Shown piece after piece: positions 1,613-41,058 of a DNA stretch of 52,490 bases. Origin of the DNA: Chloroflexota bacterium (GTDB lineage: Bacteria > Chloroflexota > Dehalococcoidia > Lucifugimonadales > GCA-2719675); assembly GCA_002719675.1 (NCBI GenBank), contig PBID01000005.1, positions 1 through 52,490 on the forward strand, read 5' to 3'. The notes below the pieces were generated by a model. That model saw nothing but the letters and a program-made list of their open reading frames with translations, had not been told where the DNA came from and made no database searches. Every line of letters begins with the position of its first letter. The first letter of the stretch is position 1. Made by a program: the position numbers and the translations under genes.

Positions 1613-3073
1613 ATGGGATCAATAACGATTGGTAATTTCAGGCAACTTTTTTTTGATGATTATTTTATTAAAGATATGCAGAATGTAAGCAGAAAATTAC
1701 ATTCTCCTGTTTTTCGTGAAATTGTTCTTTCTTCAGATTCACCTGCTGATAAAGCTAGTGCAATGTTTATGGTCGTGTTAAAAGATGATGGAAAATATAA
1801 AGCTTGGTATCGTTGTGATCATATTGGATCTCCGGAAGTTAGAAATCCAAGACATGCCGCTTATGCAGAAAGTAAAGATGGGATTCATTGGGAAAAACCA
1901 TCGTTAGGATTGTTTGAGATTAACGGATCAAAAGATAATAATCTAGTTTGGATGGGACCTGGTTCGAATCTTGCACCATTTATAGATTCAAATCCAAATG
2001 TTAGAGAAGATCAAAGATATAAGGCAATAATAAGGACGTCTAAAGCTGATCAACATCATCCAATAATTGGAACTTCAGGAGGTCTTGATGCAGCAGTGTA
2101 CGGTCTTGTTTCCCCAGATGGTATACACTGGAATTTAATTCAAGATACTCCAATTTTAACAGAAGGTCCATTTGATTCTTTTAATATTCCTTTTTGGGAT
2201 CCACTTATTCAAGAATATGTTATTTATACTAGGGGGATAGGTGGTGTAAAAGACTCGAATAGCCAAGAGGAAAATATTGATATTAAGTCTATTGAATATG
2301 GCAAAACAACGTGGGATTTTTTTGGAGGTGTTCGTTGGATTAGAAGATCAACTTCGAAAGATTTTATAAATTGGACTCCATTGCAAGATATTAATACAGG
2401 TGATACTCCATTTGAACATCTATATACCAATTCTTGTACTCCTTATCATAGAGCTCCAAATATTTATTTGATGTTTCCGTCCAGATATGTAATTGAACAT
2501 ACCCCAGACAATGATTGGATTCATGGAGAGGGAGTGAACGATATAGTTTTGATGTCTAGCAGAGATGGAATTAATTTTGACAGAACTTTTATGGAAGGTT
2601 TTATTAGGCCAGGTTTGGATATTGAGAATTGGCATGAACGGGGTATTTATATGGAAAAAGGTATCCTTCAGACTTCTGATAATGAAATGAGTATGTATTT
2701 AAGTGAACATATTAGATATCCTTCTTCAAGAATACGTAGATTAACTATTCGTACTGATGGATTTGTTTCTGTAAATTCTGGATTCTCAGGTGGTGAATTT
2801 ATTAGTCATGATTTCATTTTAGAAGGAGATCAATTAGAGTTAAATTATTCAACTTCTGCTTCAGGATATTTGAAAGCAGAATTACAAGATCTTGAAGGGA
2901 CACCTATCCCAGGATTTTCTATCCAAGAATGTCCTGAAAAGTTTGGTGATGAAATAGATGGAATTATTAAATGGAATAACAAAGAAAATCTTAGGGAATT
3001 ATTGGGTAAATCAGTCAGACTTAGGGTAGCTTTGAAAGATGCTGATTTGTTTTCCTTAAAATTTTTAAAATAA
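1613..3073 (+). CDS. Predicted beta-propeller glycosidase-like protein, copy 3
   Basis: A 486-residue protein and third member of the tandem family. ATG 1613 is preferred over the TTG immediately before it; CAGGGG (about 1599-1604) is the likely ribosome-binding site. It begins with QLFFDDYFI, where copy 2 has ELFVDYYLT. It has the blade motif AYAESKDGIHW at about residues 83-93, several further propeller-like repeats (SPDGIHW, SSRDGINF) and the same C-terminal sandwich motif ELNYSTSAS. Unlike the pair upstream, its DNA is clearly diverged, so this copy has escaped recent homogenisation. The 18-base gap to copy 2 suggests one transcript. No membrane segment or signal peptide is visible, so it is predicted cytoplasmic, acting on small imported carbohydrates or related compounds. 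Substrate is unknown. Confidence 0.75.
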   Translation: MGSITIGNFRQLFFDDYFIKDMQNVSRKLHSPVFREIVLSSDSPADKASAMFMVVLKDDGKYKAWYRCDHIGSPEVRNPRHAAYAESKDGIHWEKPSLGLFEINGSKDNNLVWMGPGSNLAPFIDSNPNVREDQRYKAIIRTSKADQHHPIIGTSGGLDAAVYGLVSPDGIHWNLIQDTPILTEGPFDSFNIPFWDPLIQEYVIYTRGIGGVKDSNSQEENIDIKSIEYGKTTWDFFGGVRWIRRSTSKDFINWTPLQDINTGDTPFEHLYTNSCTPYHRAPNIYLMFPSRYVIEHTPDNDWIHGEGVNDIVLMSSRDGINFDRTFMEGFIRPGLDIENWHERGIYMEKGILQTSDNEMSMYLSEHIRYPSSRIRRLTIRTDGFVSVNSGFSGGEFISHDFILEGDQLELNYSTSASGYLKAELQDLEGTPIPGFSIQECPEKFGDEIDGIIKWNNKENLRELLGKSVRLRVALKDADLFSLKFLK

Positions 3074-3145
3074 TTTATATACTTAAAATAGATTTTTATT
3101 CCTTGATGGAATTTGTATTTTTAAAGAATTTTCTACTTGGATGTG

Positions 3146-3304
3146 TTATTTGGATTGAATCTTCCAAAATCCAATGCCAGATAAAATACCGATAATCCCT
3201 GAGAATGTCATTGGAATGCCAACATCTCCACCAAAGTCTGGTAACCCCAAACCTAAACTAGCCAACCCAACTACTATCAACAAAATTGGAATAATCTTAC
3301 TCAT
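3146..3304 (-). CDS. Small predicted membrane protein (52 aa)
   Basis: An unlisted short ORF reading right to left, 52 residues starting MSKIIPILLIVVGLASLG and ending FWKIQSK. It has two hydrophobic stretches separated by a Gly/Asp/Pro-rich turn (LPDFGGDVGIP), so it should span the membrane twice. Two consecutive ATGs (3307 and 3304) follow CAGGAG; the second gives the better spacing of six bases. The ribosome-binding site, length and hydrophobic pattern support a real gene in an otherwise empty gap. I do not recognise a family. Confidence 0.6.
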   Translation of the reverse strand: MSKIIPILLIVVGLASLGLGLPDFGGDVGIPMTFSGIIGILSGIGFWKIQSK

Positions 3305-3307
3305 CAT

Positions 3308-3736
3308 AATCTCCTGAAAATTATTTTGAGGGAAATTTTATATGATTAGATGGAATATTTAAAGTAAATTAACAGGAAGTGGTACGAAGGTAGCTCAGCA
3401 ATTACTTGAAGCCTACTTCCTTGCGGATTAACATATTTCAGTTAAAAATTCAGCAAAAGTAATAACTGTCCAGCAGTCATAAGAGAACTACCAACGCACC
3501 ATAGATATATTATCATGCCCTTTTTGTTTTTCATGTCAGACATACTTAATGACACACTTCACTAAAACGTTAACAACAATCCTATACGATGGTAAACTAT
3601 TAGACTGAAAACGCTCACATATACGTCAGCCTACTACAGTTAATGGTAGTTGTTGAGATGATAAGTAAAATAGGTTTTTATACACTTTCATCGTAATATA
3701 TTAGGTGAGTTATTTTAAAGAACGGAGATTAAAATA
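3308..3736. other. Gap with little coding signal; one weak small ORF and a hairpin
   Basis: No convincing gene or RNA family is recognised. Seven bases AGGAAGT (3374-3380) can pair with ACTTCCT (3415-3421) around a 34-base loop containing a 'GTAGCTCAG' stretch that superficially resembles a tRNA D-arm. No acceptor, anticodon or T-arm follows. A minus-strand 33-codon ORF (3442-3543) is listed separately. The right edge holds the ribosome-binding site CGGAG (3723-3727) of the aminopeptidase gene. Confidence 0.5.
3442..3543 (-). CDS. Possible tiny membrane peptide (33 aa)
   Basis: This short minus-strand ORF would encode a peptide with a basic start (MSDMKNKKG) followed by a single hydrophobic span (MIIYLWCVGSSL...LLLLLNF). 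The 'positive-inside then hydrophobic' layout is typical of small single-span proteins. There is no good ribosome-binding site before the ATG. It could equally be chance in an AT-rich gap. Confidence 0.3.
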   Translation of the reverse strand: MSDMKNKKGMIIYLWCVGSSLMTAGQLLLLLNF

Positions 3737-36683: not shown

Positions 36684-37700
36684 TTATAATTTCACTATCA
36701 TTTGAAGCTCATCGGTAGGGTTTTTTAAATTTTCAAATACCTTGGGGATTTCTTCTAATTGGATGTAACTTTTTTTAGGGAGCAGAATATCTAAATCAAC
36801 TTTTTTTGTTTCAATTAGTTTCATTGCAATTTTCCAATCTTCCGGGTGCGCCCCAAATGTAGATTGAATATTGATTTCTCTTGCTTGCCAGTCTATTGGT
36901 TTAAAAAACATATTATTCCAGGGCACTCCTACTAACATTACTTGACCGTTTCTTTTTGCTAAATTTAATGAGTCATTGAATGTTTCACCAATACATGCAC
37001 AATCATATACAATGTCTGGTCCCAAGCCATCACAAATTGACACCATTTCTTCGATAATGTTTGATTCATTTGGATCCAGAGTTTTAGTTGCTCCTAGGAG
37101 TTTTGCGGTTTTACGCCTGATTTTTGCTGGTTCTGAAACAATTATTTCTAAAGCTCCCGAAATTTTAGATACTTGAGTTACAAATAGTCCTATTGGTCCT
37201 GCACCAATTATCCCAATTTTATTTCCAATAGATAATTTTGATAATCTAATTGCTCTTACAGCAACCGCTAATGGTTCACATAGTGCAGCATGTTGATCAG
37301 AAACTGAATCAGGGATTTTCATTGGTTCCCATTCTTCCATGACGACGTATTCCGCATACGCTCTTAAGGGTTTTCCTTTGAAGCCATCTGTTCTAAAATT
37401 AAATCGAGGCAAAATAGCAAATCCAGCACCTTTACCTGGAGGTGGTGTACCTCCACCACCAACTACTCTGTCTTTGACTTTAAGTTTTGTAACATCTTTA
37501 CCGATTTCAACAATGGAGCCACAATATTCGTGCCCCATTACTGTTCCAATTGGTAATGCATCATACATATATGCATGTACATCAGTTCCACAGATTGCAC
37601 TGAAATTGACTTTAATTAAAACTTGTTTTGGGCCAGGTTTAGGTATGTCGATTTCTTCGATCAGTATTGTTTGATTACCTTTATAAACTGCTGCTTTCAT
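36684..37700 (-). CDS. Zinc-dependent alcohol dehydrogenase (threonine/sorbitol dehydrogenase-like)
   Basis: A 338-residue MDR dehydrogenase with the catalytic zinc site intact. The cysteine is in SAICGTDVHAY, the His-Glu in MGHEYCGSI, and the Rossmann loop is IGIIGAGPIGLFV. The structural-zinc lobe, normally four cysteines, is replaced by a Gly/Pro-rich loop (GGGGTPPPGKG), so that zinc is probably missing. I start at ATG 37700 (MKAAVYKGNQT, the canonical opening) rather than at an in-frame ATG at 37769. The longer form would overlap the upstream helicase-loader gene and lacks homology-like sequence; GGAAA precedes ATG 37700. Substrate is unknown. It sits 22 bases downstream of that gene but is probably functionally unrelated. 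Confidence 0.9.
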   Translation of the reverse strand: MKAAVYKGNQTILIEEIDIPKPGPKQVLIKVNFSAICGTDVHAYMYDALPIGTVMGHEYCGSIVEIGKDVTKLKVKDRVVGGGGTPPPGKGAGFAILPRFNFRTDGFKGKPLRAYAEYVVMEEWEPMKIPDSVSDQHAALCEPLAVAVRAIRLSKLSIGNKIGIIGAGPIGLFVTQVSKISGALEIIVSEPAKIRRKTAKLLGATKTLDPNESNIIEEMVSICDGLGPDIVYDCACIGETFNDSLNLAKRNGQVMLVGVPWNNMFFKPIDWQAREINIQSTFGAHPEDWKIAMKLIETKKVDLDILLPKKSYIQLEEIPKVFENLKNPTDELQMIVKL

Positions 37701-37722
37701 ATTAGTTTTCCGTTTCAATGGA

Positions 37723-39090
37723 TTATTTTTTAATTCCTGATCTACTTTTGTTTCTATAATCTGGGGCACGTATTTTGATGATTTGACTGACAGCAGGGTC
37801 TTGAACTCTTGAAGTAATTGGATCTAGTATGTCTTCAAATTCGAGCATCGATGTGATTATAGTAGGTAATTGTGCATTATGTCGGTAAACAATTATTTGA
37901 TAAAGTTTTTCGACAGCCCATTGACTACTTCTTTCTTTGCCTAAATCATCAAGTATCAACAAAGGTGTTTTTTTTACTGAGTCGAAACGATCTTCGTAGT
38001 TTATTTCACTTTTGGGATCAAATGCTTGTCTCAAATAATCTAATAATTCAGGTACAAATGTGAAAAACGGAGAGTCTCCTAATTCTATTCTTCTATTTGC
38101 GATAGAAATTGCTAAATGTGTTTTTCCTACACCTGTTTCTCCGTATAAAGTCAACCATCCTTCAGGATTTTCAGCATAAATTTTACAAGCTTTAAAGGCA
38201 GATTCGATCGTGTATCTTTGTTGTTTTGTTGCAAAATTTCCTTTTGAATTAAATTTTTCAAAAGTCATATTTTTTAGTAATTTTGGCTCTATATAACCCA
38301 AATCGAATTGGTTTTCTTGATTGTCGGTTTTGAAGGAGTAAATTTCACTAATATTATTTGATTGGAGACGAGAAAGAATTTGTTCATCAATATTGTTTAA
38401 ACCGCCATTGATAGTAAATATTGTTGGTAATTCAGCATTGAATCGATGTCCAATTACTTGTCTTAGTTTTTCTTCAGCCCAAGGGGAAGTATTATGGCTG
38501 CCAAGTTCGTCCAAAATTAGTATTTCTGCAGAATTAATTTGTTCAAAAATTTCACTGTATCCTAAATTGCTATTTGGATTAAAAGTTGACCTTAGGTGGT
38601 CTAAAAGATCAGGTACTCTCGTAAAAAAAACGATTTTACCATCTTCAATACACTTGTTTCCAATTGCTGCTGCAAGATGAGTTTTCCCACTTCCAGAAGG
38701 TCCTGTAAATACTAACCAACCATTTGGGCTTTCTGTAAACTTGAGTGAATCTTTGAATGCTTTATCAAAGTCTATAGAATTTTCTTTACTATTGTTGATT
38801 CCTTTAGGATTTGTATTATTGAAATTAGCTTTATGCAAATAACCTAGGTTACTGTATTTAAGTAATCGTTTTGTTCTTTCCAAGTTAATTTGAGCTTGTT
38901 GACAGTCACAAATAAATGGTTTCCCAAAGTTAGGGTGATCTATTGGTAAATCAATAGTTACCCAACCCTTACCACTGCAGTTTTCACATATATTTTCAGG
39001 TGTAATGTTATTGTTAATATTTGAAATTTTATTTTCTTTTGAAGTATTCCCCGTATCCAGTTTTTTCAGAATTTCCGAGAGTTCTTCCAT
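37723..39090 (-). CDS. Tandem-duplicated DnaI/DnaC-like helicase loader with zinc finger
   Basis: A 455-residue protein with two consecutive AAA+ ATPase domains of the DnaC/DnaI loader type. A four-cysteine zinc-finger-like element (C35, C38, C61 and C63) comes first. Domain 1 has Walker A GPSGSGKT (130-137) and Walker B ILILDE (190-195). Domain 2 has Walker A GETGVGKT (317-324) and Walker B LLILDD (377-382). The domains align throughout, sharing for example GKTHLA, VPDLLDHLR/VPELLDYLR and NAELPTI/NAQLPTI. Putative arginine fingers are R241 and R428. Known DnaI and DnaC proteins have one such domain. It starts at ATG behind AAGGA and overlaps the dnaD-like gene by 62 bases; dnaB lies just upstream, strongly supporting a primosome role. 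Confidence 0.9.
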   Translation of the reverse strand: MEELSEILKKLDTGNTSKENKISNINNNITPENICENCSGKGWVTIDLPIDHPNFGKPFICDCQQAQINLERTKRLLKYSNLGYLHKANFNNTNPKGINNSKENSIDFDKAFKDSLKFTESPNGWLVFTGPSGSGKTHLAAAIGNKCIEDGKIVFFTRVPDLLDHLRSTFNPNSNLGYSEIFEQINSAEILILDELGSHNTSPWAEEKLRQVIGHRFNAELPTIFTINGGLNNIDEQILSRLQSNNISEIYSFKTDNQENQFDLGYIEPKLLKNMTFEKFNSKGNFATKQQRYTIESAFKACKIYAENPEGWLTLYGETGVGKTHLAISIANRRIELGDSPFFTFVPELLDYLRQAFDPKSEINYEDRFDSVKKTPLLILDDLGKERSSQWAVEKLYQIIVYRHNAQLPTIITSMLEFEDILDPITSRVQDPAVSQIIKIRAPDYRNKSRSGIKK

Positions 39091-39670
39091 TGTTTTTTCC
39101 TTCTCTATACCATGTTTCTAAAATGGTGTGAATATATTTCCAATTTCTTTTATTTCGGGTTGCAGATTCTTTTACGGCGTCTACGATCCAATTGAATGGG
39201 AATTTATTTTCAGCCTGTATCAATTCGTCCACAATCATTGGATTTAGCATTCCTACGTTATCTTCATAAAGTTCAAAAATATTTTTTGGATTATTTTCAG
39301 ATATAACTGGATCATTAGTTTTTTCAAAAGTTTCCATATGAAAAACGGTTTTTGTTATTCCTGTTACTTTGTTAGTGTATATTTTTTGATTTATGAAGTC
39401 TTTCATAATGAGAACATCACAAATTTCTTTAAGTTTTTTAGTTGTTTGATCTTTTGTTAAAGAATTAGGTCCTAATAATTTTAAGGTTACTGGGTCATTC
39501 GAAATTTCATCGAATGAAAGTTCAAAAGTCTCTGTATTTAAGTTTTTTTTCTGATATATCAAATGGATAATTCTTAAAAAAATTTTTATTTCATTAATAT
39601 TATTTAAATTTTTAATAGATTTTTCTAGTACTCCACTGGAAATAGAAATTGTAAATTCATGTTTTTTCAT
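39029..39670 (-). CDS. DnaD-like primosome protein
   Basis: A 213-residue protein with a C-terminal DnaD/DnaB2-type domain. The motif WKYIHTILETWYREG near 174-188 corresponds to the 'YIxxILxxW' signature, preceded by FELYEDNVGMLNPMI. The N-terminal region (about 20-115) is compatible with a winged-helix replication domain. In Bacillus, DnaD helps load the replicative helicase with DnaB2 and DnaI. The position between dnaB and a DnaI-like loader supports the same role. It starts five bases after the dnaB stop and overlaps the loader gene. The N-terminal part has no strong motif. Confidence 0.85.
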   Translation of the reverse strand: MKKHEFTISISSGVLEKSIKNLNNINEIKIFLRIIHLIYQKKNLNTETFELSFDEISNDPVTLKLLGPNSLTKDQTTKKLKEICDVLIMKDFINQKIYTNKVTGITKTVFHMETFEKTNDPVISENNPKNIFELYEDNVGMLNPMIVDELIQAENKFPFNWIVDAVKESATRNKRNWKYIHTILETWYREGKNNGRTLGNSEKTGYGEYFKRK

Positions 39671-39675
39671 GGATA

Positions 39676-41058
39676 CTAAGTGATGCTTTCTGGCCGAGCA
39701 TCTAAGCTTTCAAAAGTAACTACATCGTTTCTGAAATACAATGGAATAGTACCTGTTGGTCCATTTCTATGTTTTGCTACTATAATTTCTGCAATATTGG
39801 CGGGATATTGGTCATTTGGATTTTTTCTTTCCCATTCAGATTCAGTAGTATATACGTCTTCTCTATATATAAAAGAAACAATATCAGCGTCTTGCTCGAT
39901 ACTTCCACTTTCTCTTAGATCTGATAGTATTGGACGATGAGATGGACGTTGTTCGACTGCTCTGCTTAATTGTGAGCATGCCAAAACAGGTACATTTAAA
40001 TCTCTAGCCATTCCTTTAAGTGATCTAGATATTTCTCCCATTTCTTGTACTCGATTTTCAGATTGTCGTGAATTTGCTCTTCCTCCCGTAATTAATTGAA
40101 GGTAATCAACAATAATCAAATCTATTCCAGATTCTGATTGCATCCTTTTAGCCTTGCCAATCATTTCACTGACAGATTGTATTGGTGTGTCATCAATATA
40201 AATTGGTAATTCTGATAATTGTCCTATGGTGTCTATTACTTTAGTTTCTTCGTCACTACTTATAAGGTTTATTCTTAAACGATGACTATCTACACCAGAT
40301 TGGCTGGATAGTAATCGCATAGCAATTTGTTCAGCACTCATTTCCAAACTGAATATCGCTACTTTTAGCCCTTTAAATGAAGCATTTTGGGCAATATTAA
40401 ATGCTAAAGTACTTTTACCTAGGCTAGGCCTTGCCGCAACAACTATCATATCTGATGGTTGTAAACCACCTCCAAAAATTTTATCTATGTCTGGGAATCC
40501 AGTTGGTATCGTAGACGAGATTTTTGAAGGATCAGAATCAAGTGAAGCTGTTTCTTCCATATACGCATCAAGTACAGATCTGATATGTACAAAATCACCC
40601 ACAGCACGCTCTGACCTAATGCTAAAAAGAAGTTTTTCAGCTTTATTTAATGATGATTCAACATCGGAAACTCCATTATATCCGATGTCTGCTATTTCAG
40701 TTGCAGTAGTGATTAATCTTCTCATAGTAGAAGTTTTTTGGACTATTTGTGCGTAGTGTTCAATATGAATTGAAGTAGGTACAGATTCAACTAAATATGC
40801 TAGATATTCTGTTCCTCCTATATCATCTAGAAGGTCATTAGAAGATAATTCATGAGATAATGTTACTTGGTTTATTGGTTCACTTTTTTCAAAGAGTGAA
40901 AGACATGAAAAATAACAAGATTTATTTTTTGAAATATAAAAATCTTCTGGTTTGACATAAGACGTGATTTTACTCAAAGAATCTGAGTCAATTAATATTG
41001 AACCTATAACAGCCTCTTCTGCTTCAGTATCAAAAGGCAATAATCGTTCTGCGTACAT
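39676..41058 (-). CDS. dnaB: Replicative DNA helicase
   Basis: A 460-residue DnaB-family helicase, the ring helicase that unwinds DNA ahead of the replisome. The N-terminal domain opens LPFDTEAEEAVIGSILID, and the RecA-like domain has Walker A ARPSLGKST (about 209-217), Walker B LIIVDYLQLI (about 317-326) and DLRESGSIEQDADIVSFIYR. No intein is present, a point worth noting since DnaB often carries one. It is the first of three co-directional replication genes, with the dnaD-like and loader genes following without gaps. Length is normal. Confidence 0.97.
   Translation of the reverse strand: MYAERLLPFDTEAEEAVIGSILIDSDSLSKITSYVKPEDFYISKNKSCYFSCLSLFEKSEPINQVTLSHELSSNDLLDDIGGTEYLAYLVESVPTSIHIEHYAQIVQKTSTMRRLITTATEIADIGYNGVSDVESSLNKAEKLLFSIRSERAVGDFVHIRSVLDAYMEETASLDSDPSKISSTIPTGFPDIDKIFGGGLQPSDMIVVAARPSLGKSTLAFNIAQNASFKGLKVAIFSLEMSAEQIAMRLLSSQSGVDSHRLRINLISSDEETKVIDTIGQLSELPIYIDDTPIQSVSEMIGKAKRMQSESGIDLIIVDYLQLITGGRANSRQSENRVQEMGEISRSLKGMARDLNVPVLACSQLSRAVEQRPSHRPILSDLRESGSIEQDADIVSFIYREDVYTTESEWERKNPNDQYPANIAEIIVAKHRNGPTGTIPLYFRNDVVTFESLDARPESIT

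Follow-up and report, generated by a model that had tools for sequence, protein, structure and literature searches.

The window (the whole stretch of 52,490 nucleotides of Chloroflexota DNA, contig PBID01000005.1, that we analysed) carries on its minus strand, at 37723..39090, an ATG-started gene of 455 amino acids whose product is very probably a helicase loader, a protein that would put the DNA-unwinding helicase in place as chromosome replication begins; the start methionine is common to most relatives' alignments with it. Directly upstream on the same strand lie two genes that a sequence-only reading of this DNA had already noted as neighbours: dnaB, the gene for the replicative helicase (39676..41058, 460 aa; TIGR00665 at 505 bits against a cut-off of 385), and a DnaD-domain gene (39029..39670, 213 aa; PF07261, TIGR01446 and phrog_186, “DnaD-like helicase loader”). 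The order is dnaB, dnaD-like, loader, and the end of the DnaD-domain gene overlaps the loader's start by 62 nt. On the other side, a downstream open reading frame (36684-37769, minus strand) looks, by reading of its sequence, like a zinc-type alcohol dehydrogenase; its listed GTG start overlaps the loader's end by 47 nt, and an ATG near 37700 is probably the true start.

The loader has two AAA+ domains in a single chain, the product of an internal duplication, as had been read from the sequence. When the protein is aligned with itself, residues 81-255 match residues 263-448 at 41% identity over 180 residues (E 5e-46), and Pfam finds PF01695 (IstB_IS21; 122 bits, cut-off 24.1) in two stretches. 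The first domain, D1, comprises residues 83-262 (38305..38844, minus strand), as delimited by self-alignment, Pfam and mapping onto DnaC; the second, D2, comprises residues 263-455 (37726..38304, minus strand), delimited on the same grounds, and is kept in orthologues that lack D1. The earlier reading had named near-identical DNA halves as the finding that would undo it; the only significant stretch that the two halves share as DNA is 76 bp at 71%. Because the halves are only 41% identical as protein, an assembly duplication is ruled out, and the architecture is the same in 145 loci.

Ahead of the two ATPases lies an N-terminal region, residues 1-82 (38845..39090, minus strand), which is kept in all aligned D1-less orthologues and is a putative helicase-binding domain with zinc-binding cysteines. 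The zinc-finger-like feature reported there is present as a CxxC...CxC cluster spanning C35-C63 (38902..38988, minus strand); across 48 relatives' sequences, C38, C61 and C63 are invariant and C35 is conserved in at least 90%. We infer that this cysteine-rich region is the part of the loader that binds DnaB.

Motif positions, all on the minus strand, were mapped through E. coli DnaC, with residues named as in PMC8213410, and counted over 145 fused proteins, 31 of them from the window's order and 24 of them named Anaerolineae-type ones. In D1, Walker A is GPSGSGKT (residues 130-137, 38680..38703; lysine in 144 of 145), Walker B (191-195, 38506..38520) ends in DE (LDE, 193-195) with E195 as the second acid, Sensor I is N228 (38407..38409), aligned to DnaC N203, and the arginine finger is R241 (38368..38370), aligned to DnaC R220 and an arginine in 133 of 145. 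D2 has GETGVGKT as Walker A (317-324, 38119..38142; lysine in all 145), a Walker B (378-382, 37945..37959) ending in DD (LDD, 380-382), the second acid being present in 140 of 145, an arginine finger at R428 (37807..37809; arginine in 143 of 145) and a Sensor II arginine, R446, in the motif APDYR (37753..37755). At its Sensor I position, M415 (37846..37848), the asparagine has been lost. Both domains thus possess the two Walker motifs and an arginine finger, and the earlier statement that each half has intact Walker motifs stands. Each domain has one sensor: D1 has N228 without Sensor II, and D2 has R446 without the Sensor I asparagine. In other words, Sensor I and Sensor II never occur together in one AAA+ domain of the window protein, a pattern in which relatives vary and which is not a criterion for exclusion. 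The pairing of N228 with S414, offered before as a sign of divided labour, was off by one: N228 and DnaC N203 align with M415.

To what family does such a protein belong? PHROGs matches it to phrog_50 and phrog_3277, both “DnaC-like helicase loader” and both in two stretches, and NCBIfam puts both halves in the DnaC/DnaI/IstB group. The equivalog models score below their cut-offs (DnaI, NF006505, 129.5 bits against 228; DnaC, NF005931, 107.2 against 357). The PRK08116 subfamily model (NF005992, a hypothetical protein; cut-off 189) gives 236 bits for the whole protein, a score summed over two domains at about 120 per half. By fold, the matches are DnaC (6qem), DnaI (2w58) and DnaC (3ecc), with TMt of 0.64-0.79. 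The loaders matched in the PDB by sequence or fold are DnaI, DnaC and IstB, and each spans one domain only. The AlphaFold model (pLDDT 81.5, pTM 0.50) supports the two folds, and its placement of the domains relative to each other is unreliable. Because it has two AAA+ domains per chain, we file the loader as a variant of the DnaC/DnaI class (AAA-CI, PF01695) and not as a plain member. No tandem, fused or two-AAA+ helicase loader turned up in the open-access literature searched; the sequences themselves are common in the databases, presumably under generic names.

The fused form is old and common to much of Chloroflexota, with one of its domains decaying. In a survey of relatives, a check that had been suggested from the outset, 48 of 58 other genomes of the window's order carry the fusion, five have the N-terminus and D2 only, three are fragmentary and two have no match; the fused form is found in most of the class, and in many Anaerolineae-type Chloroflexota as well. 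A wider set of 301 Chloroflexota genomes gave loader matches in 190, many of those outside Dehalococcoidia being single-domain. The best 80 loci from 84,980 species genomes are all fused, and their titles are Dehalococcoidia, SAR202, Anaerolineae, Caldilineae, Ardenticatenia and similar, apart from three titled as other phyla (L122, L127, L168); the title of L122 is probably wrong, since its match coordinates equal those of G250 in the window's own phylum. No fused form occurs among the phage and plasmid matches examined, and all 80 IMG/VR loci are single-domain.

Several loci depart from the common plan. In G041 the loader is split between overlapping frames (L068:2016-2744 and 2705-3445), one with the N-terminus and D1 and the other with D2, which is either an assembly frameshift or a genuine gene split; the fusion is intact in its congener G002 (L015). 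Two genomes have two full-length fused loaders each, G003 (contigs C15 and C25) and G035 (C33 and C256), possibly paralogues or contamination. Loaders of family f75 (L073, 982-2712; L074, 2005-3699; L075, 2011-3558), of 516-577 residues as open frames, have one AAA+ domain near the C-terminus and a long N-terminal extension. The G028 loader (L065:1799-3178) has two domains, both divergent (112-133 bits), and an uncertain place in the trees; its surroundings yielded no DnaD-like gene. In the genome from which the window comes, this loader stands alone, the sole other match being a distant AAA+ protein of DnaA length on contig C3.

The company that the gene keeps is much the same throughout. Of the 115 fused loci whose flank is long enough, 111 have dnaB upstream, and 109 of 141 have a DnaD-like gene there. 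A check had been proposed on whether the fusion is fixed together with DnaD; it is not tied to DnaD, for single-domain loaders of Chloroflexota share the operon and some fused loci have no detectable DnaD. As the single-domain loaders have these neighbours too, the operon either predates the fusion or is independent of it. In several Anaerolineae-type genomes, the dnaB upstream of the fused loader has an intein (PF14890) in its C-terminal domain (L150:1879-3894, L156:1708-4374 and L174:1536-4193, the last two also with a LAGLIDADG domain). An apparent fusion of DnaB with DnaD in L180 was dropped, its joint being a masked stretch.

DciA was absent from all 59 relatives searched. Across the 301 Chloroflexota genomes, the loader (at E < 1e-10) is found in 182, DciA in 95 and both in none, a statistic that ignores shared ancestry in a split that runs along many families. 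Two genomes of the window's order, G020 and G058, yielded neither loader nor DciA, which may reflect gaps in their assemblies or a third way of loading. The exclusion agrees with the domestication of dna[CI] and the loss of DciA in Chloroflexi that Brezellec et al. 2016 (PMC5109545) report. Could the gene nevertheless be a transposition helper ATPase like IstB, or part of a prophage, rather than a resident loader? PF01695 does bear IstB's name, and dna[CI] genes have a phage origin according to the same article. But no istA or phage genes adjoin the loader, whose neighbours are dnaD-like and dnaB; the operon with dnaB is conserved across the phylum; the gene occurs class-wide and excludes DciA; and the phage and plasmid relatives examined are all single-domain. 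We regard a transposition or prophage role as extremely improbable.

The two domains have not fared equally across relatives. Positions of the tetrad that contacts ssDNA are conserved in nearly all D1 and D2 of the 145 fused proteins. The Sensor I asparagine occurs in 64 D1 and only 16 D2; among single-domain loaders it occurs in 24 of 29 from Chloroflexota and 79 of 80 from viruses. Within the window's order, D1 keeps the second Walker B acid in 15 of 31 proteins (in the other 16 it is mostly replaced by glycine), Sensor I in two and Sensor II in none, and N228 itself is not conserved in the order. D2 of the same proteins has the Walker B acid in 30, Sensor I in none, Sensor II in 30 and the arginine finger in all 31. 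In the Anaerolineae-type proteins, D1 has Sensor I in 23 of 24 and Sensor II in all 24, and D2 has them in none and 11, respectively. The better-kept copy is therefore D2 in Dehalococcoidia and D1 in the Anaerolineae-type proteins. Comparison with the congener G001 gives D1 a dN/dS of 0.094 and D2 one of 0.032, so that both are constrained, D1 less so, and D1 evolves about three times as fast. The earlier idea that the two ATPases may have specialised gains support from Sensor II, lost in D1 and kept in D2 in this class, and none from the residues, N228 and S414, on which it was first based.

Could these differences be neutral drift, with both ATPases catalytically equal and the fusion merely tying subunits together? 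Both domains are under purifying selection (dN/dS < 0.1), and Walker A is nearly invariant in both, as such equality would have it. Yet Sensor II is lost from D1 and retained in D2 class-wide, with the opposite in the Anaerolineae-type proteins, the D1 Walker B acid is gone from half of the window's order (16/31), and D1 is the faster-evolving domain and has been lost about five times. Equal ATPases are, we think, improbable.

How did the two copies come about, and where did some of them go? In domain trees, D1 of Dehalococcoidia and of some other lineages forms a single clade (17 rows, support 99/99), and D2 of the class lies in a separate clade, within which the same-class D1-less proteins are nested at several places. 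At the D1-less junction, residue ~80 is joined to ~269, that is, one AAA+ unit is absent. On an independent DnaB tree, the absence of D1 takes five changes, three of which well-supported branches make unavoidable, and the grouping of all D1-less rows in one clade is rejected (p 6e-6). Because D1-less rows nest in the D2 clade and the DnaB tree needs five changes, the class, on the evidence of these trees, had D1 from its beginning, and about five separate deletions removed it, so that the N-terminus and D2 remained. Both the D1 clade and the position of the D1-less rows inside the D2 clade speak against repeated gains of D1. Whether Sensor I is regained when D1 is lost was also considered, with a mixed outcome: the f14 proteins have asparagine, and other D1-less ones have C, S, P, T or H. 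In the f14 loaders (L060, L061), D2 has full canonical motifs, including the Sensor I asparagine, regained or retained.

Deeper in the tree, there may have been two or more independent tandem duplications, one Dehalococcoidia-type and one Anaerolineae-type, and the polarity would then be reversed without any switch. In the free tree, Anaerolineae-type D1 lies closer to D2 of Dehalococcoidia than to their D1, and separate duplications would give intact copies that differ by group, as these do. However, the deep nodes are weak, the AU test rejects neither one clade of all D1 (p 0.287) nor the alternative topologies (p 0.246 and 0.337), and the well-supported D1 clade covers several lineages. We give independent duplications close to an even chance.

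What, then, might this protein do? The explanation that we think best, and probably right as a whole from what the sequences tell us, is that it would be a domesticated chromosomal loader of the DnaC/DnaI class for DnaB helicase, driven at its core by D2 and assisted by D1. The host would be a SAR202-type Dehalococcoidia bacterium whose PF01695 ATPase had its AAA+ domain duplicated in tandem long ago. The cysteine-rich N-terminus would bind DnaB, and both AAA+ domains would bind nucleotide and take part in a single AAA+ assembly, seated on the helicase, that grips ssDNA. In the window's class, D2, with its Sensor II and arginine finger preserved, would be the core motor, and D1 would serve as an auxiliary, able to bind ATP and ssDNA but with its hydrolysis relaxed or lost, like the non-hydrolysing subunits of clamp loaders and ORC; we consider this division of roles rather likely. 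DnaB binding, loading, the oligomer and the hydrolysing site are things that we infer.

Some caution about hydrolysis comes from DnaC itself. Its Walker A, Walker B, Sensor I, Sensor II and arginine finger are each needed for ATPase activity, and the same mutants are only partly reduced in loading (PMC8213410). Loading can therefore go ahead despite weak hydrolysis, and by that reasoning neither D1 nor D2 may match the turnover of DnaC. D2 may hydrolyse poorly or differently, because it has lost the Sensor I asparagine and N203A abolishes the ATPase of DnaC (PMC8213410); D1 may still be active in the window's genus, because the Walker B glutamate and Sensor I asparagine are kept there.

The shape of the assembly is a more tentative matter. 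A ring of three chains with alternating D1 and D2, the trimer of dimers of the earlier reading, is plausible, if somewhat short of an even bet. Its fuller version seems rather unlikely as a package: three chains would make a six-domain spiral on DnaB; D1 and D2, in alternation, would each hold ssDNA and ATP, but only one kind would hydrolyse, D1 being silent in Dehalococcoidia and D2 in the Anaerolineae-type proteins. Alternatively, six fused chains could stack a ring of D1 and a ring of D2 on DnaB, in the manner of p97 or ClpB, so that every DnaB subunit has its own N-terminal binding domain. Arginine fingers in both domains would suit two homotypic rings, nature has taken D1 out cleanly and left the rest in place, as it could a separate tier, and the Foldseek matches that span the full chain are two-tier p97-like ATPases. 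p97/Cdc48 do share two AAA+ domains per chain, but they belong to an unrelated clade and superpose poorly (TM 0.25-0.32, rmsd 14-21 Å); such alignments therefore reflect tandem topology only, and ssDNA-contact residues conserved in both domains fit one DNA-binding spiral at least equally well. A two-tier loader is a real, if minority, possibility.

Current models of helicase loading are built on loaders with a single AAA+ domain in homomeric rings or spirals (DnaC, DnaI). Here is a large phylum with two in one chain, where one domain degenerates, with opposite polarity between lineages, and where precise deletions recur. How many of a loader's ATPases must hydrolyse ATP, and what ratio of loader to helicase is required? 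The natural fusions and the natural deletions of D1 together offer a means to ask. If the fuller version of the alternating ring is true, a hetero-oligomer is built into the chain, a counterpart in nature of clamp loaders and ORC, and the loader reverts to a homomeric ring wherever D1 has been deleted.

Among known systems, the loader resembles E. coli DnaC (6qel/6qem) in its AAA+ fold, Walker A and B, arginine finger and ssDNA tetrad, all of which map on both domains. DnaC has a single AAA+ domain in 245 aa and lacks the CxxC...CxC cluster, whereas ours has two domains and the cluster, and lacks, relative to DnaC, the Sensor I asparagine in D2 and the Sensor II arginine in D1. The operon resembles dnaTC of E. 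coli, with a DnaD/T-type gene (DnaT being kin to DnaD) immediately upstream of the loader. The N-terminus of DnaI binds zinc. DnaI of Bacillus and Geobacillus (2w58, 4m4w) gives the best PDB sequence matches and, as here, has a DnaD partner; unlike our loader, it has a single AAA+ domain. A further precedent is the dna[CI] of Brezellec et al. 2016 (PMC5109545), a resident PF01695 gene that replaces DciA in Chloroflexi; their data set includes Dehalococcoides. The main text of that article makes no mention of tandem architecture, motif asymmetry or losses. The window gene and the dna[CI] of Chloroflexi very probably belong to the same gene family.
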